A stretch of 35,998 nt of DNA from Myxococcales bacterium (GCA_012798435.1 JAAZNF010000062.1:1-35998), one strand, 5' to 3'. Numbered from the stretch's first letter, positions 2,106 through 32,636 are shown. Numbers and translations: made by a program. Notes: a model not told the origin generated them from the sequence alone.

Positions 2106-3497
2106 ATGATGTCAAGATTGTTTGTTTGCGCCCGGTTACTTTTGCTGGGAGGGACAATGGCACTTGCGGCCTTCCTCGCGGCCTGTGGCAGCAGCAAGGC
2201 GGGCCCGGGGAAGTATTGCGACAAGAACTCCGACTGCCAGGCCGGGTTGGAGTGCAAGAGCCACACCTGCCAGAAGCCCGACCCCGGTCAGTGTGTCCCG
2301 GCCTGCAAGCCCGATGTGGAGGCCTGCATCAACGGTACCTGCAAGCCCATCGCCGATCCCAACGACAAGGACGGCGATGGGTTCCAGACCGGAGTGGACT
2401 GCAACGACATGAATCCCTACATCAACCCGGCGGCCTACGAGTACTGCGACGGGGTGGACAACAACTGCAACAACCAGGCCGACGAGGGCTGCCCGAGCTG
2501 CACCGAGGGCGCGGTGCAGCCATGCGGTACGGACATGGGCGACTGCGTGGCCGGCATGCAGACCTGCACCGGCGGCACCTGGAGCGCCTGCACCGGCACC
2601 GGGCCGGTCCTGGAGAGCTGTGACGGGCACGACAACGACTGCGACGGTCTGGTGGACGAGGTATGCCCGTGCCAGAACGGCCAGCAGGTTGCTTGCAGCA
2701 GCAACGTGGGAACCTGCATCGAGGGCGTCCAGACCTGCGAGGAAGGAATGTGGTCCGCCTGCCGCAACGGCGAGGTCCCGCGCTCCGAGGTTTGCGACGG
2801 GCGCGACAACGACTGCGACGGGCTCACTGACAACGGGTTCTCGACGGGCAGTGACTGTCAGGGGACGGGAGAGTGCGGCGCCGGGGTGCGCGAATGCGCC
2901 GGAGACATCGAGACCCGCTGCAGCACCATGCCCGGCGGGAGCCAGGATCGTTCCGAGACCGAAAAGTGCGATCATTTGGACAACGATTGCGACGGGCTGA
3001 CCGACGAGGGGCTGGAAGCCGACACTGTTCCCAACAACTGCCAGATCGCCAAGGACCTGGGTGGCCTGCCCGACGACGGATCCGAGATCAAGGTCACCGG
3101 CAACCTGTGGCCGGACAATGACGAGGATTGGTACAAGGTGACGGCCACCGACGACGGCCAGGCCGATGCCACCACCCTGTGCGATCGCTTCCATTTCCGG
3201 GTGAGGTTCTTGGCGCGGGTGGAGAACATGGTGATGGACGTGTACGTGGACGGGTGCGACGGCTCCCAGGTGGATTGCCTGTCGGACACCGAGTACGATC
3301 ACGCCTACGACGGACGCTGGAACGAGAACACCACGCCCATCGGCCAGTGCGAATGCCGCAACGAGAGCGTGCCCGGGTACAACCTGTGCCTGAGCGAGCC
3401 GCGGGTGTTCTACATCCGAGTGCACGGCGGCTCCGGGCACGTGTTCGGCTGCGAGAACTACCAGCTCTCTATCTCCAACGGCCTGATCGCGCCTTGA
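2106..3497 (+). CDS. Lipoprotein with MopE-like putative metal-binding repeats
   Basis: This is a predicted surface or periplasmic lipoprotein of 463 residues. ATG 2106 is preferred because GGAGG (2093-2097) lies 8 nt upstream; the frame is open further upstream but without a ribosome site. The signal peptide ends in lipobox FLAAC (Cys27). A cysteine-rich segment (YCDKNSDCQAGLEC) follows, then a DKDGDG segment and four units of the type CDGxDNDCDGxxDE (residues about 115-310), matching the putative metal-binding motif family seen in MopE-like and myxobacterial proteins. From about residue 320 the protein becomes a beta-rich domain with a GNLWPDNDEDWYKV motif, like secreted pre-peptidase-type domains. 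Many Cys pairs suggest disulfides. Calcium or copper binding is inferred from the Asp-rich units. The gene at 5311 encodes a longer paralog. It heads a three-gene operon. Confidence 0.9.
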   Translation: MMSRLFVCARLLLLGGTMALAAFLAACGSSKAGPGKYCDKNSDCQAGLECKSHTCQKPDPGQCVPACKPDVEACINGTCKPIADPNDKDGDGFQTGVDCNDMNPYINPAAYEYCDGVDNNCNNQADEGCPSCTEGAVQPCGTDMGDCVAGMQTCTGGTWSACTGTGPVLESCDGHDNDCDGLVDEVCPCQNGQQVACSSNVGTCIEGVQTCEEGMWSACRNGEVPRSEVCDGRDNDCDGLTDNGFSTGSDCQGTGECGAGVRECAGDIETRCSTMPGGSQDRSETEKCDHLDNDCDGLTDEGLEADTVPNNCQIAKDLGGLPDDGSEIKVTGNLWPDNDEDWYKVTATDDGQADATTLCDRFHFRVRFLARVENMVMDVYVDGCDGSQVDCLSDTEYDHAYDGRWNENTTPIGQCECRNESVPGYNLCLSEPRVFYIRVHGGSGHVFGCENYQLSISNGLIAP

Positions 3498-3535
3498 GCG
3501 GTGGCCGGGGACGTCGTCACGAGGACGAAAGAACC

Positions 3536-5314
3536 ATGACGGGCAACGGGCGTCTGGCAAGAAGCTGCGTATTGGCGTTGTTCGTGGCCGGTTGCGGCGC
3601 GGAGGAGGGGGGCGGCCTGGCGGTCCAGATCTTTTTCACCCCCGCGCCGGGGGAGGCGGCGTCGGAGCTGCGCGGCGATCCGCCCGCAGACATCAGCGAC
3701 TTCCGCCTGTGCGTCACCGCACAAGACATGGAGGGGCGGCGCTGCGCCAACTTCTCGGTGGCGGACTACCAGAAGGCCGGGCGGAGCCGCCTGGGCGACA
3801 TTCCCACGGGCAACGACCGCAAGGTGAGCTTCCAGGGTTTCCAGTACTCGCGACAGGAGGCCTCCTGGTGCGGGGAGCTGAGCGGCGTCACCATCCGCAA
3901 GAACCAGACCACCAAGGTGAGCCTGTTCATCAGCGGCTGCAGCGACTTCACCGCCACTCGCAACGCCATGAGCTCGCCCCGGGTATTCCACACCGCCACC
4001 CGCCTCGCCGACGGACGGGTGCTCATCGCGGGCGGCTTCAAGTCTTTGAGCGGCGCGCCCGAGATCTGCACGGCCGGTGGGATCCAGTTCTCCTGCCTGC
4101 GACTGCAGGCCACCGACCAGCTGGATGTGTACGATCCGACCCGCGGCGAGTTTCAGGCCCTGACCCAGGCGCAGTTGAAGCACCCGCGAGGGCTCCACAG
4201 CGCGAGCTTGCTGCCGGACGGCCGGGTCCTGCTGGTGGGCGGGTGCGAGCGCGCCGTGCTGCGCCTGACCTTTCCCGCCGGGCCGGCCCCGGTCCTCGTG
4301 GTCGACCCCCAGGACCAGGGATTGGGCGACGGGTGGGGCCTGGCCGGCGCCACCGCCGAGATCCTCGACCCGGCCACCTTCACCACGGCCGAGCTGCCCA
4401 TGACCGGTGTCACGCCGCGGGCCTGGCACGTGCCGCTGGCGGTCCCCGGCGGGCAGGTGCTGCTGGTGGGCGGCACCGGACCCGGCGACCCGCCCGTGGA
4501 GCTCTCCACCGCTGTCCGGTTCGATCCGCTCTCGATGGCCTTCAGCGAGGTTCCGGCGCTGACGCTGGCTCGCCACGGCAGCGCACCCGCGTCATTTGGC
4601 GATCCCGCCGCCGGCGAGTTCCTGTTCTGGGGAGGAAGCCACGCGGCCGGGCCGCAGAACCCAGGGCTGTTCGCGGAGATCCTGACCGTGTCAGCCGGCA
4701 GCGACCCCGTGTCGCGCACGCCGGCCTTCGTGACCACCCAGGTCTCGCGGGGCTGGCCCGGCTTCTATGGCGCGAACGCCGAGTTGCCCAGCACCGGTGG
4801 CACGCCGCGGGTGCTCATCACCGGCGGCATGATCGTCGACAAGAGCTTCAATAACCAAGATCTGCCGTTCACCCTCAACCAGTTCCGCCTCATCGATCTC
4901 GCCGCCGGCAGCGAGACCATGCAGGAGAACCAGAACTTCATGTCCCGCTTCCGGGCGTTCCACACCGCGACCACCCTGTCCTCGGTGATCACCGAACAAG
5001 ACGAGGTCATGGTGGCGGGCGGGTTCATCTCCTACGACTCGGTGAACGGCTACAAGACCCAGAACTGGGTGGAGTTCTTTTCGCCGAGCACGATGGCGTT
5101 CACCAGCAAACAGGTGGGGGCCCGCACCGTGACGCTGCTCATCGCCCGGGCCGGCCACACCGCCACCTTGCTTTCCGATTGCACGGTGCTCGTTGCCGGT
5201 GGATTCACCGGGGATCCCCCGCTCACCCGGCTCTCGATCACGGACACCGCCGAGGTCTTCAACCCCACCCCCCGCGCCCTGGAGCATCTCCCGGTGGTAG
5301 GAGACTGTCGATGA
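3536..5314 (+). CDS. Kelch-like beta-propeller lipoprotein
   Basis: This is a predicted lipoprotein of 592 residues with a signal peptide ending in lipobox LFVAGC (Cys20). ATG 3536 was chosen because the signal peptide starts there; the open frame continues upstream inside the previous gene but as an out-of-frame shadow. Residues about 25-140 look beta-rich and Ig-like. From about residue 140 onward, repeated units of the form HTAxLxDGRVLIxGG recur (for example TRLADGRVLIAGG, SLLPDGRVLLVGG and TLLSDCTVLVAGG), matching kelch/galactose-oxidase-type blades; I count about seven. No obvious copper-oxidase residues were identified, so a binding or scaffolding role is more likely than enzymatic. It starts 38 bp after the preceding gene and its stop overlaps the next start (ATGA), so the three genes are probably one transcript. 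Confidence 0.88.
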   Translation: MTGNGRLARSCVLALFVAGCGAEEGGGLAVQIFFTPAPGEAASELRGDPPADISDFRLCVTAQDMEGRRCANFSVADYQKAGRSRLGDIPTGNDRKVSFQGFQYSRQEASWCGELSGVTIRKNQTTKVSLFISGCSDFTATRNAMSSPRVFHTATRLADGRVLIAGGFKSLSGAPEICTAGGIQFSCLRLQATDQLDVYDPTRGEFQALTQAQLKHPRGLHSASLLPDGRVLLVGGCERAVLRLTFPAGPAPVLVVDPQDQGLGDGWGLAGATAEILDPATFTTAELPMTGVTPRAWHVPLAVPGGQVLLVGGTGPGDPPVELSTAVRFDPLSMAFSEVPALTLARHGSAPASFGDPAAGEFLFWGGSHAAGPQNPGLFAEILTVSAGSDPVSRTPAFVTTQVSRGWPGFYGANAELPSTGGTPRVLITGGMIVDKSFNNQDLPFTLNQFRLIDLAAGSETMQENQNFMSRFRAFHTATTLSSVITEQDEVMVAGGFISYDSVNGYKTQNWVEFFSPSTMAFTSKQVGARTVTLLIARAGHTATLLSDCTVLVAGGFTGDPPLTRLSITDTAEVFNPTPRALEHLPVVGDCR

Positions 5315-7410
5315 GAAGGAGAGGTTGGATCTGTTTCGGTCTGTGGTTCGCGGTGGCGGGCGGATTCGGTGGTTGCGGCAGCACCAACGCGGGTCGGGGC
5401 GAAGGGGAGTATTGCGACCAGACGTCGGACTGCCAGGCGGGGCTGGAATGCAGGAGCCACGTCTGCCAGAAGCCCGCCGCCGAATGCCGCCCCCCCTGCG
5501 GCGAAAACGAGATGTGCGTCGACGGGGTGTGCAAGCCCATCCAACCCGTGCGCGATCAGGACGGGGACGGTGTCGGCAGCGACCGCGACTGCGACGATCT
5601 GGACCCGCTGACCCACCCGGCCGACGAGGCGCAGGGGATCCCGGCGGGTTACGAGTACTGCGAGGGGAGAGACAACGACTGCGATGGCTCGACCGACGAG
5701 GATTGTCCGCCCTGCGCGGAGGACGCGGTGCAGGATTGCGGAACCGATGTCGGCGAGTGTACTCCCGGCGTCCAGCGCTGCCGGGGCGGCGTCTGGGAGG
5801 CTTGCAGCGGCCAGGGGCCGGTGGCCGAGGTCCCGGACGAGAAGGACAACGACTGCGACGGCGCCACCGACGAGGGCATGCCCTGCACCGCGGGGCAGAC
5901 CCGGGCCTGTGGCGGGACCGTGGGGGTGTGCACCGCCGGCGTTCAGGAATGTCAAGATGGCCTTTTCAGCGAGTGCCGCAGCGGAGTGAACCCCGGTACC
6001 GAGAAGTGCAACGGGCTGGACGACGACTGTGACGGGATCACCGACGACGGTTTCATGACCGGACAGACCTGCGACGGCCGGGGCGAGTGCGGCGCTGGCG
6101 TCATCGAATGCGCCGCCGATTTTGGCCTGCGCTGCTCGACCGAGCCCGGCGGCAGCCGCGACCAGTCCCGCCCCGAGCGCTGTAACGGGAGAGACGACGA
6201 CTGCGACGGCGAGACGGACGAGGACTTTCGCATCGGCCAGCCCTGCCTCGGTACCGGGATGTGCGGCAACGGGGTGTGGGAGTGCGGCGGCGAGGAGGCG
6301 GCGCGCTGCAGCACCGACCCGGGCGGCAGCCGCGACCAGTCCCAGGCCGAGCGCTGCGACGGGCTGGACAACGATTGCGACGGTTCGACCGACGAGGACT
6401 TCTTTGTGGGCGCGACATGCGACGGCCTCGGCGAGTGCGGCGCCGGCACTATCGAGTGCGCCTCGACGGCCACCACCCGGTGCAGCACCGAGCCCGGCGG
6501 GAGCGCAGACCAGGCGCAAGCCGAGCTGTGCGACGGGCTCGACAACGACTGCGATGGCGAGAGCGACGACGGCTTCGGCATTGGCGGGGGCTGCGACGGG
6601 GTGGGAGAGTGCGGCGTCGGGGTCATCGAGTGCGCCTCCGCCAGCGCCACCCGCTGCAGCACCGATGCCGGCGGCACCCAGGACCAGTCTCAGGCGGAGC
6701 AGTGCAACGGGCGGGACGATGACTGCGACGGCAGCACCGACAACGGCGACGACCAAGCCCTGTGCCAGCCGCTGCCCGATCATGTGGTGCGGGCCACCTG
6801 CGCGCGACCGGCTGGCGCCTGCCAGGTGGCCAATCCCCTCTCCGACTGCCAGGGCGGGTGGTGGGACTTCAACGGGGTGTGGGCCGACGGCTGCGAGGTC
6901 CGCCTCGACAACGGCGCCGAGGTCGGGAACACCTGCGCCGCCGCCGCGGCGTTGGACACCCTGAGCGACGCCGCCGCGGGCAGCCAGATCACGGTGAGCG
7001 GCAACCTGGTGCCGGCGGGCGACGAGGACTGGTACCGGGTGCTCGGATTCGACGACATCGCCAGCGACGAGAGCGTGGACCAGTGCGACAACTACCACTT
7101 CAAGGTGCGCTTTGGACAGAAGCCCGCCGGGGTGGTGTTCGATGTGAGCCTGGACTCCTGCACCGAGATGGGGTGCCGGCAGGAGATCTGCTACGACTTT
7201 CGCACCAACTTTCGGGACGTGTCCGGTTCGACACCGCTCGGAGAGTGCGGCTGCCGCATGAGCAACACCGCCGGGTACAACATCTGTGCGCAGACGCACC
7301 ACACCTACTACATCCGGGTGTACCGCCAACCGGGCTACGCCGTCACCGCGGATCCCTATACCCTCACCATCAGCAACGGAAACATCAGCGGCGGCGTGAC
7401 CTGTCCCTGA
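5311..7410 (+). CDS. Long MopE-like metal-binding-repeat lipoprotein
   Basis: This 699-residue lipoprotein is a longer paralog of the one encoded at 2106. ATG 5311 overlaps the upstream stop by 4 bases and follows GGTAGGAG. The lipobox is GGFGGC (Cys22). The N-terminal Cys-rich segment (YCDQTSDCQAGLEC, then CVDGVCKPI) closely matches the paralog. A DQDGDG/DRDCDD segment follows, then about seven units such as CDGLDNDCDGSTDE, each separated by spacers of the type TGxGECGAGxIECA and CSTxPGGSxDQS. The C-terminal domain starts near residue 545 with GNLVPAGDEDWYRV and ends in a YYIRVYRQPGY and LTISNG motif shared with the paralog. Metal binding and surface location are inferred from the repeats and lipobox. 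The extra units relative to the paralog suggest expansion by unit duplication. Confidence 0.9.
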   Translation: MRRRGWICFGLWFAVAGGFGGCGSTNAGRGEGEYCDQTSDCQAGLECRSHVCQKPAAECRPPCGENEMCVDGVCKPIQPVRDQDGDGVGSDRDCDDLDPLTHPADEAQGIPAGYEYCEGRDNDCDGSTDEDCPPCAEDAVQDCGTDVGECTPGVQRCRGGVWEACSGQGPVAEVPDEKDNDCDGATDEGMPCTAGQTRACGGTVGVCTAGVQECQDGLFSECRSGVNPGTEKCNGLDDDCDGITDDGFMTGQTCDGRGECGAGVIECAADFGLRCSTEPGGSRDQSRPERCNGRDDDCDGETDEDFRIGQPCLGTGMCGNGVWECGGEEAARCSTDPGGSRDQSQAERCDGLDNDCDGSTDEDFFVGATCDGLGECGAGTIECASTATTRCSTEPGGSADQAQAELCDGLDNDCDGESDDGFGIGGGCDGVGECGVGVIECASASATRCSTDAGGTQDQSQAEQCNGRDDDCDGSTDNGDDQALCQPLPDHVVRATCARPAGACQVANPLSDCQGGWWDFNGVWADGCEVRLDNGAEVGNTCAAAAALDTLSDAAAGSQITVSGNLVPAGDEDWYRVLGFDDIASDESVDQCDNYHFKVRFGQKPAGVVFDVSLDSCTEMGCRQEICYDFRTNFRDVSGSTPLGECGCRMSNTAGYNICAQTHHTYYIRVYRQPGYAVTADPYTLTISNGNISGGVTCP

Positions 7411-24313: not shown

Positions 24314-25099
24314 TCAGCGCCACATCTCGTAGAGCACGAAGGCCAGAAGCTCCAGCGCGATCAGGATCACCACCACCCACTCCAGGCGCAGGCTGTTGCG
24401 GCTGGAGAGGAAGTCGTACAGGTTGGAGGTGGAGTCGGCCAAAAACTGCAACTTCCGCTCGATGGCCTCCTGGCGCTCGGGCAGGTCGAACATGTCGAAC
24501 AGCGACTTGTAGAGCTGCTCCAGGCTCTCCGACTCCCAGGTGGCGTCCGGCTTGTCGAACAGCGTCAAGTTGGCCAGCACCGCGTGCCGGGTCTGGCCCA
24601 GAAAGCCGATCACCCGCAGGATCTTGCGCGAGGAGATGCGCACCCGGCCCCGCTCGTGCAGCTCGCGAAGATACGGCAGGAAGCGCTGCAGCGCCGCGTC
24701 CACCTCCCGCTCCAGGTACTCCAGCGCCACCGACTGGGCCAGCAGGTTGGCGATCACCCGCACCTGGTCGAGCGTCGGCTCGCCGGGCAGCCAGACCTCG
24801 TTGAACAGCACCTTCTGCTGCTCGCGGCCGATGTCCACCTGGAGGCGGTCCTCCACCTCCTCCACCAGCGTGGGGTCTTCCAGCGTCTCGCGGACGCGCC
24901 CGGCCACCAGCCGCGCCAGCGCCTCGTCGAACGACCAGAACACCACCGCGCCGAAGTTGGTGATGATCACCCGCCGGCTGCTCCCCAGGTCCACCACCAA
25001 GGGGTCGGCGTTCAGGATGGCGAACTCGGCGAACCGCTCGCGCACCTTCTTGAGGTCCACCGTCGAGCTGAAGTACCAGGCGCGCAGCGACACTCGCAT
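24314..25099 (-). CDS. RMD1/YagE family protein (DUF155)
   Basis: This 261-residue protein matches the DUF155 family, which includes yeast Rmd1 and Sif3-type mitochondrial proteins and bacterial YagE. Visible marks are the strand VIITNFGAVVFWSFDE, the helical region ALEYLEREVDAAL, then ILRVIGFLGQTRHAVL and a Leu-rich C-terminal helix (EWVVVILIALELLAFVLYE) that looks like a single membrane anchor. Trp in ATWESESLEQLYKS and the charged helix before the anchor fit the family. Molecular function is unknown; the fold may be a membrane-associated scaffold. It sits upstream of the zinc-ribbon gene and is divergent from the lipoprotein operon at 25346. Confidence 0.88.
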   Translation of the reverse strand: MRVSLRAWYFSSTVDLKKVRERFAEFAILNADPLVVDLGSSRRVIITNFGAVVFWSFDEALARLVAGRVRETLEDPTLVEEVEDRLQVDIGREQQKVLFNEVWLPGEPTLDQVRVIANLLAQSVALEYLEREVDAALQRFLPYLRELHERGRVRISSRKILRVIGFLGQTRHAVLANLTLFDKPDATWESESLEQLYKSLFDMFDLPERQEAIERKLQFLADSTSNLYDFLSSRNSLRLEWVVVILIALELLAFVLYEMWR

Positions 25100-25345: not shown

Positions 25346-28090
25346 ATGCAGAACCGAGTGACCGCTCTTCGCGTGGTGGCGAATCTGACGGTGGTGTTGG
25401 CGGCAGCCTGGGGCGTGGGAGCGTGCGGAGGCGGTACAAACACCTCCCCAGACGGCAGCGCGGAAAATCAACCACCGGTTGCAAACACCTTTGAACTCTC
25501 GGTGCGCGCCGACACGCCGCGGACCATCGTTCTGCAAGGGACCGACCCCGACGGCGATCCCCTGACCTACCGCATCGTGGACCAACCTTACAACGGGACG
25601 TTGTCGGGCTCGGGTGACACCTTGACCTATACCCCGAATGCCGGCGAGCTGGGCACGGACTCGTTCACCTACCAGGTGAACGACGGCAAGCTCGACGCCG
25701 AGTATCATGGGTTCGTCTTCATCACCATCCAGGAGGCTGGTTATAACGAGCCACCGCAGCCGGGTGACTGGATCGTGGTCACCCAACCCAACCAGCCGGT
25801 GGCCATCTCGCTCGCGACGTACGATGCCGATGGTGACGAGCTGAGCTACGCCATCTTCACCCAGCCGGCGCACGGCACGCTCTCCGGCTCGGGGAGCGAG
25901 CGGACCTACACTCCGTCCAAAGACTGGATCGGCAGCGACGAGTTCGTGTTTTCCGTAGACGATGGCCGCGGGCCGGCCACGGCCACCGTGACGGTGGTGG
26001 TGACCCCCAAACCGGTTTTCGGCGAGATGACCGAGGAGGAGCGCACCGCGGCGCTCTCACAGATCACCAGCCGAGTCGCCGCGGCGCCGGCCCTCTCTTC
26101 AGCGGCCGACCTGCGCGCCCTGGAGAGTGCCGTGCGCGGCGTCGCCGGCGTGGTTTTCGTAGGCTCCGATCGGAACGGCGTGTTCGGTCAGTTCCGGGAC
26201 GGCGTGGCCTTCATCGTGGGAGCGGATGCCATGCTGGAGCCGCTGACTCCGGCGCCTGTCTTGCCCATCCCCCAGCTGCCGCCCAGGGCCACGCTCGATG
26301 AAGCCCGTGCGGTCGTCGCGCCGGCGGCCTGGCTGAACCATCCGGCGAACCCGCTGGCGATGACCCCCCAGGGCATGGTTCTCCCCGGCAGCAAGACCGC
26401 GCTCATCATCTCCGCCTTCGGGAATCATCCCGATTTCCCGCCGGACAACTCCACCAAGCTGAAGGCCATGTTGGATCATGCTGGATACCAGACGACCATC
26501 CGCGCCAACGCCGGCATTCTGGACTTCGAGATCGACGGCCTGGTGGGGGTGGTGCACGTCCGCACGCATGGAGGCGTGGGGTCGATCATCAACACAGACG
26601 ACGAAACCGTGGGGCACCTGGAAGCCTTCTGGACAGCCACGCCGGACAGCGAGCTGCTGCGCGCGGCCAACCGGGCCGAGTTGAACTCTGGCGAACTGGT
26701 CATGATGAACGAGAACGTGTCGAGCAGCGCCCGGGAGTGGCACTTCGGCGTGACCGGCAAGTTCATTGAGAACCACTGGAGGTTGGACGACGCCTACGTG
26801 CATGCCAGCTCCTGCACGCTGGGCACCTTCGCCCCGTATCAGCCGTCCGCCGGGCAGCGCTATCAGCCCGGCCAGACCGGCCTGCAACGGGCCATCCTGT
26901 CCCGCGGCGCCAAGCTGTTTGCCGGCTGGACGGAGCCCACCCACGTGGCCAAGCTGGATCAGGTGGCCAACTACGTGTTCGATCGAATGCTGGGCGAGGA
27001 TGGCGAGTCGGGGTCCGATGCGCCGCAAGAGACGCCGCTCCAGCGTCCCATGGGAGCGGCGTCGATCAAGAGGGACATGAGCGGCAAGGGCCTCGATCTG
27101 GACCACGTCACCACCAGCGACGGCTCCTGGACCTCCGTGTTCCGCTTCATGAAACCCGGAGGAGGTCGTTACACGGTGGACCGGCTGGCGCCGAGCATCA
27201 CTCACCTGATGGTGGATCCGGACCAGAAGAAGCTCTTCGTGTACGGCGACCTGGAGGTGGCCGGCAGCGTGGACCGGCGTATTTCCATCGGCGGCAACGA
27301 GTCCCCGGCGGAATCGGACGGCGATGGCTTCAACTGCAATCTGCCCGGCGGCGCCTCGGGCGACGTGCGCGTGATCGTGGATGGGCGCAAGAGCAACCGA
27401 GTGCGCCTGGGTTCTTACTCGGGCACGCTGACCTACACCATCACCGGACCGGGAAGCCTCAAGCAGGTGTGGACCTTCGAGGTGAAAATGCTGGGGGACC
27501 TCCACAAGTACCGCGACTGGGCCGGTGAGAATCCAACCACCCACAAGAGCTACCTGCGCCTGATGGCCGATGGCACCCGCGCCACCTTCAACGCCAGCGG
27601 CCAGCACAACGACGGCCACTACGACGTGAGCTGGTCGGGCGAGGGCACGCTCACGCCCTTCGTGTCGGAAACCGCCACACCCCCCGACGGTTCGTTCGCC
27701 TTGTTCGGGCAATTGAACCCGACCTACCCTGACAATCTGTGGTGGAACATCATGATCTCGCTCTCCGAGGACAAGGGCTTCCGCGAGGTGATCAAGGTCA
27801 AGCAGCCCGACGACACCTGGAAGACCATGAACGATCGCCAGGTGGGCTCAGTCTTCCCCCTCGACAACAGCGGCATGATCTCCACGCAGTCCGGCACCGG
27901 CTTCTTCGCCCTGAAACAGCCCGCCAGCATCGCCACGGACGGCAGCCTGCCGGACGGCGCCATCGGCCCCGAGGCCATGAATTTCATTGGCGCCGGCGAC
28001 TACACCGGCTGGAGCTTCCAGCACGAGTTCAAGTGGAGCGGCTTCACCCCTGAGCAGGGCAGCGAGATCGACGACAAGATGCCGCGCTGA
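25346..28090 (+). CDS. Large lipoprotein with two Ig-like domains and a caspase-like (clan CD) domain, first paralog
   Basis: This 914-residue lipoprotein starts at ATG 25346 after AGAGGGAGG; the lipobox is WGVGAC (Cys27). Two tandem Big_9/cadherin-like domains (about 42-130 and 136-222; GTDPDGDPLTYRIV, ADGDELSYAIF) precede a pre-domain (about 225-300) shared with the product at 28940. Residues about 345-545 read like a caspase-type fold: strand KTALIISAF, helix LKAMLDHAGYQ, strand VVHVRTHGG (His408-Gly409), then YVHASSCTLG (Cys490), then GAKLFAGWTE and YVFDRMLG. His and Cys are placed like a clan CD dyad, but the Cys motif differs from metacaspases. C-terminal beta domains follow (IPT/TIG-like near 615; a KYRDWAGENP segment shared with the paralog). 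Peptidase activity is inferred, not shown. Confidence 0.7.
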   Translation: MQNRVTALRVVANLTVVLAAAWGVGACGGGTNTSPDGSAENQPPVANTFELSVRADTPRTIVLQGTDPDGDPLTYRIVDQPYNGTLSGSGDTLTYTPNAGELGTDSFTYQVNDGKLDAEYHGFVFITIQEAGYNEPPQPGDWIVVTQPNQPVAISLATYDADGDELSYAIFTQPAHGTLSGSGSERTYTPSKDWIGSDEFVFSVDDGRGPATATVTVVVTPKPVFGEMTEEERTAALSQITSRVAAAPALSSAADLRALESAVRGVAGVVFVGSDRNGVFGQFRDGVAFIVGADAMLEPLTPAPVLPIPQLPPRATLDEARAVVAPAAWLNHPANPLAMTPQGMVLPGSKTALIISAFGNHPDFPPDNSTKLKAMLDHAGYQTTIRANAGILDFEIDGLVGVVHVRTHGGVGSIINTDDETVGHLEAFWTATPDSELLRAANRAELNSGELVMMNENVSSSAREWHFGVTGKFIENHWRLDDAYVHASSCTLGTFAPYQPSAGQRYQPGQTGLQRAILSRGAKLFAGWTEPTHVAKLDQVANYVFDRMLGEDGESGSDAPQETPLQRPMGAASIKRDMSGKGLDLDHVTTSDGSWTSVFRFMKPGGGRYTVDRLAPSITHLMVDPDQKKLFVYGDLEVAGSVDRRISIGGNESPAESDGDGFNCNLPGGASGDVRVIVDGRKSNRVRLGSYSGTLTYTITGPGSLKQVWTFEVKMLGDLHKYRDWAGENPTTHKSYLRLMADGTRATFNASGQHNDGHYDVSWSGEGTLTPFVSETATPPDGSFALFGQLNPTYPDNLWWNIMISLSEDKGFREVIKVKQPDDTWKTMNDRQVGSVFPLDNSGMISTQSGTGFFALKQPASIATDGSLPDGAIGPEAMNFIGAGDYTGWSFQHEFKWSGFTPEQGSEIDDKMPR

Positions 28091-28143
28091 GAAATTTTGA
28101 ACGTTCTTTGAACACGGGCAGACCAAACCGAGAGGAGGAACCG

Positions 28144-28923
28144 ATGAACGCGCGAACCCTGGGGACGGTGGTGTTGGCGGCCCTGCTGTGCGGTTGCGGC
28201 GGCTCGAGCAAGGGTGAGGGTGACGGCGGCAGCGACGGCAAGGACGGCAGTAGCGGTACCGACAACGGCGGCGGCGGGACTGTCGAGCTCAACGCCTCGC
28301 TGGGCATCTGGCTGACCCAGTACCCCATCACCAAGTCCACCACCTTCAAGGAAGGCCCGGTCAGCGGCTTCTTCATGCTCAAGAAGGACGGCGACGACCT
28401 GGCCGGCGCCACGGTGAAGATCAACGGCACCCTCATCCCCGAGGCTCCGGGGCAGTTCCAGTCCCCCGGAAGCTACGATCCGGCCTACGCCGCGGACATC
28501 CCCATCGCCCCTGGCGGCACCATGACCATCACCGTCGATGAAAACGGTCACCACCATGAATTTAGCTTCGTCTGCCCGGCGGAGGTCACCATCACCGAGC
28601 CGGCCGAGAACACGTCGGTGTCGGTGAACGATCAGATCACCGTGCGCTGGACCGGGACCATCAAGTACCAGAACTCGGTCTACGACCCCATCCTGAACCT
28701 GTTCGAGTACGATCCCGACACCGGCACCAACATCTCGCTGCTCGGCTTCGATCCCGGTCCCTACCACCTGAACGAGAACGACACCAGCCTCACCCTGACG
28801 CTGCCGGACACCAGCCGGCCGCAGTACTTCGTGGAGCTTTCCATCCCCGGCGATCTCACCCAGAACGACACCGCCATGGGCTACTGCGGGTTGAGACGCC
28901 GGGTGCATCTGGTCCGGCAGTGA
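28144..28923 (+). CDS. Small Ig-like lipoprotein between the two caspase-like genes
   Basis: This 259-residue lipoprotein starts at ATG 28144 after GAGAGGAGG. The lipobox is LLCGC (Cys18) and is followed by a Gly/Asp/Ser-rich linker (to about residue 46). The body is beta-rich: a domain around LGIWLTQYPI to VTITVDENGHHHEF, with three consecutive His (about 136-138) and a single Cys (CPAEV), then a second Ig-like segment (ITEPAENTSVSVNDQITVRW and onward) ending CGLRRRVHLVRQ. I recognise no family with certainty; it looks like a binding or inhibitor module. It sits 53 bases after the first caspase-like gene and 16 before the second, on the same strand, so a role with them is likely. Not assigned a function. 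Confidence 0.8.
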   Translation: MNARTLGTVVLAALLCGCGGSSKGEGDGGSDGKDGSSGTDNGGGGTVELNASLGIWLTQYPITKSTTFKEGPVSGFFMLKKDGDDLAGATVKINGTLIPEAPGQFQSPGSYDPAYAADIPIAPGGTMTITVDENGHHHEFSFVCPAEVTITEPAENTSVSVNDQITVRWTGTIKYQNSVYDPILNLFEYDPDTGTNISLLGFDPGPYHLNENDTSLTLTLPDTSRPQYFVELSIPGDLTQNDTAMGYCGLRRRVHLVRQ

Positions 28924-28939
28924 GCGAAGGACATGTGGC

Positions 28940-30943
28940 ATGAAAGTGTCTATCAAGAGCAAAGCGGTGGTCTGGTCCTGGTGCCTTCTGGCCTCGTTCA
29001 TCCTGTTCACGATCGGGGCGGGTTGTAGCTCTACGACGTCATCGTCCACCTATTCCGACGAGGAGCTCACGGCCATCTTGGACATGGCGAGTGAAGTCCG
29101 CGCCCGCGTGGAGGCGCTGCTGGCCAGCAATGCCAATCCCACCTCGGATCAACTGTTGCAGGTCATCCGGGACGTTCCGGGCGTTTCCGCGTCTGGAACA
29201 GGCGAGGGAGCACACGCCTCCGCGTGGGTCGAGCTGGGTTCTGGCAAACCCATCCAGTGGGTGATGATGGATCCCCAACCGAATCTGGTGCAGCCACCGC
29301 CTCAGGCGATGCCGGCGCCGTTGCCGCCACCCGGCCAGGGGAACGGCAAGAACTACGCCTTCTTCAATATCGCCTATGCGAGTAGCGTAAATTCCACCCT
29401 GTCCAGCATGCTCAGCAACAAAGGATACGTTCGGACTGGCGGGACCACCGGAACCTACAACGAACTTCGTAGCCTGGGCACCCTCAAGGTGCTCTATATC
29501 TCCAGCCATTCCACCATTCCAACCCATGGACCGGCGGTTTTCTCGGTCATGCTTGCCGACAAACTGCCGCCCCATGAGAAGGGCAAGCTCAACACGGGCG
29601 CGTGGCCGGACGCCATCCGAATGGATCTCCATGAAGGCCGCCTCGGTTTCTGGACGCTTTGCAGCCCGAAACAACCGATTTGCAATGACACCCTCTTCTT
29701 CAACGACAAGTTCGCCGGCGCCTATTTTTCCTTCGAGGATGACAGCCTCTTCTTCCTCGACTCATGCCACAGCGGTTCGCCCAGCGCCGAAGACTTCCGC
29801 AACACACTCATGTTCTGGGGTCCGAAGCTGACCGTCTATCTGGGCTGGTCCTGGGAAGTGACCTGGCCGGATGGCTGGTACGCGGCCAACTTGTTCTTCG
29901 ACCGGTGGCTCGGTGCCAACCAACAGCAGCCCGTACCCGATCCGCCGCAGCGGGCCTTCGACGCCAAGAGTGTACTGGCCGAGATGACCGAGAAAAATCT
30001 CAACCGCGTGATCGGGGAGGATGGGAAGATCTCGTACCTCAAGGTGTTTCCCGAGAGCAAGATCAACTTCGCCGGCGCGCCCAGCATCCAGCTCATCCAG
30101 GTCAAGGAGAAGGACCAGGAGATGAAGATCGGCGGCATCTTCGGCAAGGATCCCGGCTCCGATCGACGCAAGGTGAAATTGGCTGGCCAGGCGCTCGAGG
30201 TGAAGGAGTGGAAGGAAGAAGAGATCACCTGCACCCTGCCGAAGAGCAGCGGCGGCTCTCAGGTGGACGTGGAGATCAGCGCCGACGATCACGAGGGCAA
30301 CAAGGTCCAGATCACCGAGTGGACGGTCAAATTCAAGCACGAGGGCCACAGCGAGATGAAGGACACCGACACCGGCGAGGTGTTCGCCAGCTCGGACGGT
30401 ACCTACACCTTCGACGTGAAGTTCCGCGCCGACGTCCACGAGTACCGCGAGGAGGCGGGCCAGGAGCCCATGAACAAGGTGATCGTCCCCTTCGAGATCG
30501 AGGACGACGGCAGCATGTCCTGGAGCGGCACGGCCCGCTTCAAGGACCAGACCGAACCCTTCTCCGGCACCACCAGCAACCTCTACGACATCGACTACAC
30601 CGACCCCGCCTGGCCCGGCAACCTCCCGGCCGATACCGACCTTTTGGCCGGCGAGGGTTACATCGACATGAACACCAGGAAGCTCTATCTGTTCCTGGTC
30701 GGGGTCGGTGACGACAGCGGCAGCGGCACCTACAACCTGGGCCCCCAGACCGACTGTCAGTACGAGCACGACCAGTACACCAACCGGGTGTACCTGGTCT
30801 TCAATCTCGACGAGAACTTCGAGATCGAAAACAACTCCTGCACCGACCAGATCACGGACCAGGATGGACAGTTCACGTACAGCGGCACCCGCTCATGGGA
30901 GTTCACCACCCGCTCACCGCCGGACAAGGACGCCGCGCGCTAG
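28940..30943 (+). CDS. Caspase-like (clan CD peptidase-type) lipoprotein, second paralog
   Basis: This 667-residue lipoprotein has lipobox TIGAGC (Cys29). After a Ser/Thr-rich linker and a helical pre-domain (about 38-110, also in the product at 25346), the core shows a metacaspase-like pattern: strand YAFFNIAYA, strand VLYISSHS (His190, at the place of SGHG), and FFLDSCHSGSPS with Cys276, closely matching the DCCHSG-type active-site loop of bacterial Peptidase C14 proteins. GPKLTVYLGWSW and FFDRWLG align with the paralog. A Pro-rich segment, a TIG-like part (about 380-470) and beta domains with VHEYREEAGQEP follow. It lacks the two Ig-like domains of the paralog. In caspase-like enzymes His and Cys form the dyad cutting after specific residues. 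Substrate and activity are unknown. The start follows AAGGA. Confidence 0.78.
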   Translation: MKVSIKSKAVVWSWCLLASFILFTIGAGCSSTTSSSTYSDEELTAILDMASEVRARVEALLASNANPTSDQLLQVIRDVPGVSASGTGEGAHASAWVELGSGKPIQWVMMDPQPNLVQPPPQAMPAPLPPPGQGNGKNYAFFNIAYASSVNSTLSSMLSNKGYVRTGGTTGTYNELRSLGTLKVLYISSHSTIPTHGPAVFSVMLADKLPPHEKGKLNTGAWPDAIRMDLHEGRLGFWTLCSPKQPICNDTLFFNDKFAGAYFSFEDDSLFFLDSCHSGSPSAEDFRNTLMFWGPKLTVYLGWSWEVTWPDGWYAANLFFDRWLGANQQQPVPDPPQRAFDAKSVLAEMTEKNLNRVIGEDGKISYLKVFPESKINFAGAPSIQLIQVKEKDQEMKIGGIFGKDPGSDRRKVKLAGQALEVKEWKEEEITCTLPKSSGGSQVDVEISADDHEGNKVQITEWTVKFKHEGHSEMKDTDTGEVFASSDGTYTFDVKFRADVHEYREEAGQEPMNKVIVPFEIEDDGSMSWSGTARFKDQTEPFSGTTSNLYDIDYTDPAWPGNLPADTDLLAGEGYIDMNTRKLYLFLVGVGDDSGSGTYNLGPQTDCQYEHDQYTNRVYLVFNLDENFEIENNSCTDQITDQDGQFTYSGTRSWEFTTRSPPDKDAAR

Positions 30944-31011
30944 CACGGTTCGACGAGGAACCGGCAAGAGACTGGCGGGAACGGCTGGCGGAAACATTAA
31001 GGAGGAAGGGC

Positions 31012-31518
31012 ATGCGCCACCTATCATGGATGACTCTGTGTCTTGTTGTGTTTTGCGGCTCTCCGGTCCCGGCCGCCGGCCCACAGCCGCCGGCCGACTG
31101 GAACAAGCCGAAGGCCCTGGCTCCGGCGAACGGCGAGGGGCAGGTATCGTTCCAGCACGGGGGCAAGGCCATCACCCTGCCGCTGCAACACATCTCTATC
31201 GACAAGGAGGACGACCTATTCCTGGTCGAGCTCCGATACGTGGACGCGAAGCAGGAGAACCGCCTGGAGATATTCTTCGGTAGCTCGCCCAGGCTGGGAA
31301 AGAACGATCCGCGCACCATCACCGGGTTCACCGTCAACACCAAGGCCGGGGGCCTCTCTCGCGCTGCCGCCAACAAGACGAAGTGCGTGTGGGCGGCGCT
31401 GGAGGTCAAGGAGCGCGAGGTGAGCGGCGCCCTCTCCTGCACCGGCCTGACCGACATGAGCTCTCAAAAGAGCGCGCCGGACGTGACCGAAGTGAAGTTC
31501 TCTGGCAAGCTCAAGTAA
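31012..31518 (+). CDS. Small secreted beta-rich protein of unknown function
   Basis: This 168-residue product has a clear Sec signal peptide (hydrophobic WMTLCLVVFCG, likely cleavage near VPAAG) and no lipobox of normal form. ATG 31012 follows AAGGAGGAAGGGC. The mature protein has repeated hydrophobic/charged strands (AITLPLQHISIDKEDD, DLFLVELRYVD, RLEIFFGSS) and two Cys (CVWAALEVKE and LSCTGL), which could form a disulfide. The pattern resembles a compact beta-barrel or jelly-roll carrier, but I recognise no family. It is 68 bases after the second caspase-like gene and 31 bases before the OmpA-like gene, consistent with one operon. Confidence 0.82.
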   Translation: MRHLSWMTLCLVVFCGSPVPAAGPQPPADWNKPKALAPANGEGQVSFQHGGKAITLPLQHISIDKEDDLFLVELRYVDAKQENRLEIFFGSSPRLGKNDPRTITGFTVNTKAGGLSRAAANKTKCVWAALEVKEREVSGALSCTGLTDMSSQKSAPDVTEVKFSGKLK

Positions 31519-31549
31519 ACCAGGGAGCTTTCCCGCAAAGGAGGTCGCC

Positions 31550-32377
31550 GTGAAAAAACGCATGATGTGGGTGGCGTGGTTCTTGGCGTTCCCGCTCGCC
31601 GCCAATGCCCAGGAGGACGAGGAGGGTTGCAAGGATCACCGCGACATCCCCCGCTACCCCGGCTACTACATCGCGGCGTGTAGCGAGAAGGACTTCACCA
31701 CCTTCGAGTTCCCGCTCGACAACGATCAGGGAGAGACCAAGGAGGGGCGCTATTTCCGCATCGAGTATCGCCTGAAGGACGGCCAGAAGGACCCGGGGGC
31801 GACCGCCATCGCGCGAAACTTCCAGAACGCCTTCCAGAAGAAGGGCGGGAAGATCCTCTACAAGTACGATGATGGCACGAGCGCCGAGAGCACCCTGAGC
31901 ATGCCGCTCGGAAAATCCGAGCGCTGGATGCTGGTGCGCGCCACGACGGGGGCCTACGACCTCGACATCCTCGACCAGAAGGGCATGGAGCAGAAGGTGG
32001 AAGTCTCGGCCAGCGAGATGCTCGAGGCCCTCAACCAGAACGGCTCCATCGCGCTCTACGGCATCCTGTTCGACACCGGCAAGGACACCATCAAGCCCGA
32101 GTCCGAGCCGCTGCTCTTAGAGATCGTGAGCCTGCTGAAGACGAACCCCAACCTCAAGCTCTCGGTGGAGGGGCACACCGATAGCCAGGGCCAGGCCAAG
32201 TTCAACCAGGTGCTCTCGCAGAAGCGCGCCGAGAGCGTCAAGAAGTTCCTGGTGAAGAAGGGCGTCGCTCAGACCCGCCTCTCTGCCAAGGGTTGGGGGG
32301 ACACGAAGCCGGTCGAGTCGAACCAGACCGAGGAAGGCCGCGCCAAGAACCGGCGCGTCGAGCTGGTCAAGAAGTAA
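31550..32377 (+). CDS. OmpA-family peptidoglycan-binding protein
   Basis: This 275-residue protein has a Sec signal peptide (MWVAWFLAFPLAANA, cleavage after ANA). GTG 31550 is the start, preceded by AAAGGAGGTCGCC. An N-terminal domain (about 25-150) contains CKDHRDIPRYPGYYIAAC, a cysteine-framed segment seen in periplasmic OmpA-type proteins. The C-terminal OmpA domain (about 165-275) shows LYGILFDTGKDTIKPES, LSVEGHTDSQG, NQVLSQKRAESVKKFL and KNRRVEL, with the conserved Asp and Arg that bind diaminopimelate in peptidoglycan. It is the last gene of the 25346-32377 group and may tether the group to the cell wall. Membership in the operon rests on spacing and orientation only. Confidence 0.92.
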   Translation: MKKRMMWVAWFLAFPLAANAQEDEEGCKDHRDIPRYPGYYIAACSEKDFTTFEFPLDNDQGETKEGRYFRIEYRLKDGQKDPGATAIARNFQNAFQKKGGKILYKYDDGTSAESTLSMPLGKSERWMLVRATTGAYDLDILDQKGMEQKVEVSASEMLEALNQNGSIALYGILFDTGKDTIKPESEPLLLEIVSLLKTNPNLKLSVEGHTDSQGQAKFNQVLSQKRAESVKKFLVKKGVAQTRLSAKGWGDTKPVESNQTEEGRAKNRRVELVKK

Positions 32378-32582: not shown

Positions 32583-32636
32583 GGCTCGCAAGGCGAGTCC
32601 TCCAGGTAGCGGAACCGGCTTGGGGGCGAGCCTTTT
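32583..32636 (+). terminator. Candidate intrinsic terminator or hairpin with T-run
   Basis: GGCTCGC (32583-32589) can pair with GCGAGCC (32626-32632), followed at once by TTTT (32633-32636). A local alternative pairs GGCT/AGCC near 32617-32632. The stem-then-T layout is the most terminator-like in the gap, but the long loop lowers confidence. Confidence 0.4.

Follow-up and report, generated by a model that had tools for sequence, protein, structure and literature searches.

Prokaryotic homologues of caspases are mostly discussed as intracellular enzymes of cell death. A survey of 671 prokaryotic metacaspases placed 30 of them in an extracellular and 98 in a membrane category, and many carried a possible signal peptide (PMC3501461). 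Here, we analyzed a window of 35,998 nucleotides (the whole stretch under study) from a Myxococcales bacterium (GCA_012798435.1 JAAZNF010000062.1:1-35998), which is part of a 5.05 Mb genome that is 97% complete. The window holds a run of five plus-strand genes, A to E (25346-32377), two of which, A and C, encode large lipoproteins with a histidine/cysteine core. On balance, we favor the view that A and C represent a pair of lipid-anchored peptidases of clan CD that is specific to this lineage and is accompanied by accessory envelope proteins.

BLASTP shows homology between A and C (1e-11, residues 481-730 of A to residues 267-510 of C). A tblastn search against plasmids yielded one further relative, QRF62393.1, encoded on megaplasmid CP063167.1 of Variovorax paradoxus VAI-C (E 4e-16 with C and 2e-3 with A), and no other member of the family was found among 72,556 plasmid records. 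The Variovorax protein, annotated as hypothetical, resembles A and C in being a lipoprotein of similar length class and in having the same core, the same TIG-like segment and the same histidine and Ser-Cys pair. Unlike the locus in the window, its gene (L026:7359-9449) stands alone amid LysR/regulator and transport genes, and it has neither immunoglobulin (Ig) repeats nor neighbors of the B, D or E type. In a three-way alignment, one histidine and one Ser-Cys are invariant, with identities within the family of ~25-29% across distant bacteria.

The similarity of individual segments was expressed as z-scores against 400 shuffles. The core is strongly similar between C and the Variovorax protein (z 27) and moderately similar between A and the Variovorax protein (z 5.4, none of the 400 shuffles reaching the score). 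The direct similarity between the cores of A and C is weak (z 2.3, with 17 of the 400 shuffles reaching the score), and the homology of these cores rests on the Variovorax sequence. The TIG-like segment that follows the core is common to all three proteins (z 6-14, A-C z 11). It is this segment, running up to the KYRDWAGENP motif in one protein and HEYREEAGQEP in the other, and not the catalytic core, that is most similar between A and C. The first-pass annotation had described a pre-domain, a core and C-terminal segments as shared by A and C. The His/Cys core, by way of the Variovorax protein, and the TIG-like segment stand, whereas the pre-domain is only weakly similar (7 of the 400 shuffles reach the score) and is not detectable by the shuffle test in the Variovorax protein, and the C-termini of all three show weak mutual similarity. 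Since C is nearer to the Variovorax protein than to A, we infer from the sequences that A and C did not originate from a recent duplication and that further members of the family must exist.

The order of a histidine followed by a cysteine, each ending a hydrophobic strand, is present in A, C and the Variovorax protein, and this is also the order in C14 peptidases (PF00656), whose DAC-x-SG motif is resembled by SC-x-SG in the A/C family. Profiles for C14, C25 (PF01364) and CHAT (PF12770) were built from genomes of the phylum and compared by hhalign with a core profile made from the three sequences. Against C14, the core profile reached a probability of 85.6 and a score of 43.1 with histidine aligned on histidine, while 100 column shuffles did not exceed 17.8 and the reversed profile gave 13.2. 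With the cysteine half by itself, the score on the DAC-x-SG motif was 28.7, against at most 15.8 in 60 shuffles. Comparison with CHAT resulted in a probability of 72.1 and a score of 39.2 in a single 136-column alignment that runs through the histidine, the cysteine and the following segment, which ends in a GW / DR motif. In the genomes sampled, CHAT was mostly matched by open frames of ~650-3200 amino acids whose make-up differs from that of A and C. The C25 gingipain family also comprises exported clan CD peptidases, but its similarity to the core did not rise above that of shuffled profiles (score 23.2, shuffles up to 23.7). Control profiles for sigma factors, the B family and the E family gave 0.1-0.3 against the core. 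As a scale, the C25 and C14 profiles, both from accepted families of clan CD, reach a probability of only 14.3 with each other. The profile comparisons and their shuffle controls thus bear out the earlier claim of caspase-type His/Cys cores at the level of sequence. They argue strongly that C and the Variovorax protein belong to a divergent, lipid-anchored clan CD family. For A, membership in clan CD is indicated indirectly through its link to C and the Variovorax protein, because A as a single sequence gave nothing above shuffles against C14.

The first-pass annotation had considered lipid-anchored caspase-type proteins unusual, and this could not be upheld. Three further genomes of the phylum (G039, G005 and G072) each encode a Pfam C14 caspase with a lipobox that has its own extracytoplasmic function (ECF) sigma gene and a lipoprotein gene after it; the extracellular and membrane categories of the published survey (PMC3501461) count against the claim as well. 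Most of the C14 genes inspected in the phylum encode a signal peptide and lie downstream of ECF sigma and zinc-finger-like genes. The genome under study matches Pfam C14 six times and C25 five times, and exported peptidases of clan CD are abundant in its lineage. A lipid anchor on a caspase-type domain is not new in kind; the novelty is a family outside known models. Both the phylum cassettes and the operon in the window place an exported caspase-type domain beside a lipoprotein gene. They differ in that the cassettes contain true Pfam C14 domains and sigma genes, whereas the operon lacks a regulator and its predicted peptidases lie outside the C14 model.

The cassette of ECF sigma factor, zinc-finger-like protein and exported C14 caspase is recurrent both in the same genome as the window (L133-L136) and in other genomes of the phylum (L126-L131). 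The zinc-finger-like protein comprises 250-280 amino acids and is an anti-sigma candidate by position, with no Pfam match in the two that were tested. The caspase itself (~520-880 amino acids) is exported or lipobox-bearing and is often followed by a lipoprotein or a carboxypeptidase-regulatory-like protein. Three cassette caspases end in ...W/YRF, which resembles a strand of an outer-membrane barrel. In one case (L136, on C18 of the same genome as the window), the exported C14 caspase cassette has a C25 (gingipain-type) gene at most ~1 kb away.

Genes A to E are separated by gaps of 53, 16, 68 and 31 bp, in this order, and each is preceded by a purine-rich ribosome-binding site. No terminator-like site was present in the four gaps, in a scan that overall performed at chance level (4 sites versus 5.8 expected). 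The G+C content of the five genes is 61-65% compared with 68% for the window. Lipoboxes were called by a PROSITE PS51257-style pattern, acylation being a prediction from sequence. They are present in A (Cys27), B (Cys18), C (Cys29) and the Variovorax relative (Cys19), while the pattern found none in D and E, which have plain signal peptides by inspection. The OmpA domain of E (residues 173-268) was recognized by Pfam with an E value of 5.9e-26 and 91.1 bits (cut-off 27.2). The gene calls and the inspection of signals agree with the initial description of five closely spaced plus-strand genes whose products are all exported, and pattern and Pfam results agree with three lipoproteins, one small secreted protein and an OmpA-type last gene. 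Ig repeats recognized by Pfam (Big_9) occur in A only; the Big_7 match of B stays below the cut-off. Models for defense systems matched the operon solely through generic OmpA/MotB hits of E.

Relatives of A and C were sought in a sample of 195 genomes of the phylum (probably Myxococcota, as judged by gene content), in ~189 genomes beyond it and in 369 genomes of one gammaproteobacterial class, and none was found apart from those in the genome under study. Weak tblastn and hidden Markov model matches at four loci of the phylum (L010, L012, L014 and L016) were discarded as chance; they were ordinary genes or overlapping frames without a lipoprotein carrying the His/Cys motif. A weak match in G597 was also rejected, as it is a collagen-repeat protein that has only the TIG-like segment in common. 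Genome and viral contig collections and phages contained no close relative of C; since the contig scans rely on near-exact matches to short peptides, distant relatives are not excluded by them. B, D and the N-terminus of E were sought in one combined search. The E family is widespread in the phylum, with 68% identity in a genome of the same family (G004), and usually stands alone in the neighborhoods inspected. B has relatives of 20-30% identity in at least five other genomes, in each case without A, C, D and E, and D has one weak relative (G047). No other genome in the phylum sample contained the five-gene order. An undescribed envelope system of five genes had been proposed at the outset, to be abandoned if the genes were not conserved together in any relative, and they are together in none of those searched. 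Most likely, the set A to E is an assembly particular to this lineage rather than a conserved machine of five parts.

The wide and mostly solitary distribution of E, the occurrence of B without its four companions, the five-gene order found in no other genome searched and the position of the Variovorax gene on its own among regulators and transporters would all fit genes that are merely neighbors. A to E would then share a transcript at most, with A and C acting as peptidases and B, D and E fulfilling unrelated jobs in the envelope. We regard this as quite conceivable, if somewhat short of an even chance. It is countered by gaps of just 16-68 bp, by the common strand and the export of every product, and by some genomes in which a B- or E-family gene is next to another peptidase with predicted export. 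In G161, a B relative lies 66 bp upstream of the gene for an HExxH lipoprotein (HEIFH motif); in G010, a B relative is arranged divergently from a true C25 peptidase; and in G004, the E orthologue follows 43 bp after an 872-amino acid lipoprotein with HEYMH, which matches DUF6055 below threshold only. No peptidase adjoins the B genes of G025 and G032 or the majority of E relatives, and this weighs against such partnerships. The few cases suggest that B and E may be accessory families accompanying envelope peptidases of differing chemistry. More tentatively, A and C may form a new clan CD family between caspases and CHAT, consisting of lipid-anchored envelope proteases, with B and E as general partners that are combined with clan CD here, with HExxH proteins in G161 and G004 and with C25 in G010.

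The HExxH lipoproteins beside an E-family gene (L058:6733-9351) and a B-family gene (L055:7316-9520) have a short N-terminal motif of the LI..A...A.......LPAEY type in common, and they match DUF6055 below the cut-off or have no Pfam match.

Several observations weigh against a caspase-type assignment of A and C. No Pfam or NCBIfam peptidase model matched A or C and no Pfam model matched the Variovorax protein; the curated Pfam cut-offs for C14 and CHAT were reached by none of the three. When single sequences were compared with C14, C attained a probability of 75 over just 13 columns at the cysteine motif and the Variovorax protein a probability of 5, in addition to the result for A given above. 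Glycine beside the catalytic histidine is typical of clan CD, according to a review of its motifs (PMC12445089). It is present in A (HGG), while C and the Variovorax protein have serine at this position (HS). The A/C family further differs from C14 by a long insert between histidine and cysteine and by the TIG-like and beta-rich C-terminal parts. AlphaFold2 models computed from two-sequence alignments had mean predicted local distance difference test (pLDDT) values of 34.5 and 35.4 and were unusable. Foldseek on one such low-confidence model returned noise, and no credible hit came from sequence searches of the PDB, for which C, the Variovorax protein and the three-row profile served as queries. 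A core this divergent, set between large beta-rich flanks, lacking the HG motif in two of its three members and, in A alone, not exceeding shuffles, could belong to binding or adhesion lipoproteins that keep a caspase-like fold without being peptidases, in which Ig and TIG modules surround a degenerate core as in pseudo-orthocaspases. We consider this unlikely, as an invariant histidine and Ser-Cys at such low identity would be unexpected if catalysis had been lost. A dedicated signalling module, in which the caspases would cut B or D to relay an envelope signal, has in its favor the small exported proteins between and after the two peptidases and the ECF sigma genes beside exported C14 caspases elsewhere in the phylum, which suggest envelope signalling for those, but it is improbable given that no sigma, anti-sigma or kinase gene lies within or adjoining the operon and that the gene set is not conserved. 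From the surface or periplasmic proteolytic or signalling module of the first-pass annotation, the exported clan CD cores, as judged by sequence, can be retained, whereas the five-gene system cannot.

In the reading that we prefer, a pair of lipid-anchored peptidases with accessory proteins, A and C would be two members of an uncatalogued and very divergent caspase/CHAT-like family of clan CD cysteine peptidases. We infer for them the fold and activity of this clan and a location in the envelope, where the lipid together with the Ig/TIG-type beta modules would hold them after export as lipoproteins. The predicted His-Cys peptidase domain would face the periplasm or the cell surface and would most likely make limited cuts, either in the cell's own envelope proteins or in foreign proteins. 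The small Ig-like lipoprotein B, the small secreted protein D and the OmpA-type peptidoglycan binder E may serve as accessory or anchoring proteins and are predicted to be co-transcribed with A and C. The features of the locus are collected in Table 1.

Table 1. Features of the A-E locus, with positions counted from the first nucleotide of the window.
Feature	Position	Strand	Evidence or remarks
Gene A, 914-aa lipoprotein	25346-28090	+	lipobox VGAC; two Big_9 Ig repeats, caspase-like core, TIG-like segment, beta-rich C-terminus
A, first Big_9 Ig repeat, residues 41-115	25466-25690	+	Pfam Big_9 E 1.1e-30, two stretches
A, second Big_9 copy	residues ~144-222, approximate coordinates	+	Pfam Big_9
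A, caspase-like core, ~residues 345-560	26378-27025	+	alignment with C and Variovorax relative
A, predicted catalytic His408 (VVHVRTHGG)	26567-26569	+	three-way alignment
A, predicted nucleophile Cys490 (HASSCTLG)	26813-26815	+	three-way alignment
A, IPT/TIG-like segment, ~residues 612-690	27179-27415	+	common to A, C and Variovorax protein
Gene B, 259-aa lipoprotein, Ig-like, two conserved Cys	28144-28923	+	lipobox; family of six
Gene C, 667-aa lipoprotein	28940-30943	+	lipobox IGAGC; caspase-like core, TIG-like segment, beta-rich C-terminus
C, caspase-like core, ~residues 137-335	29348-29944	+	C-Variovorax z 27; profile versus C14, CHAT
C, predicted catalytic His190 (VLYISSHS)	29507-29509	+	three-way alignment, C14 profile
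C, predicted nucleophile Cys276 (LFFLDSCHSGS)	29765-29767	+	three-way alignment, C14 profile
C, IPT/TIG-like segment, ~residues 380-455	30077-30304	+	Pfam TIG E 0.055, below cut-off
Gene D, 168-aa secreted protein, plain signal peptide	31012-31518	+	one relative, G047
Gene E, 275-aa exported protein, C-terminal OmpA	31550-32377	+	family widespread in phylum
Terminator-like stem and T run	32617-32632	+	~240 bp after E; chance match not excluded

Upstream of A, a DUF155 gene is oriented divergently (24314-25099, minus strand), and a gene for a zinc-ribbon protein is located downstream of E. Elsewhere in the window (2157-7410), three large lipoproteins are encoded in succession, the first and third of which share a cysteine-rich start, YCD..SDCQAGLEC.SH.CQKP.

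If unrelated envelope peptidases do have B and E as common partners, these two families would help to find more envelope proteases. The family of A and C would help to trace the relationship between caspases and CHAT proteins, and it would add to clan CD an envelope branch outside the Pfam C14, C25 and CHAT models that is lipid-anchored in a myxobacterium-like genome and on a Variovorax plasmid.

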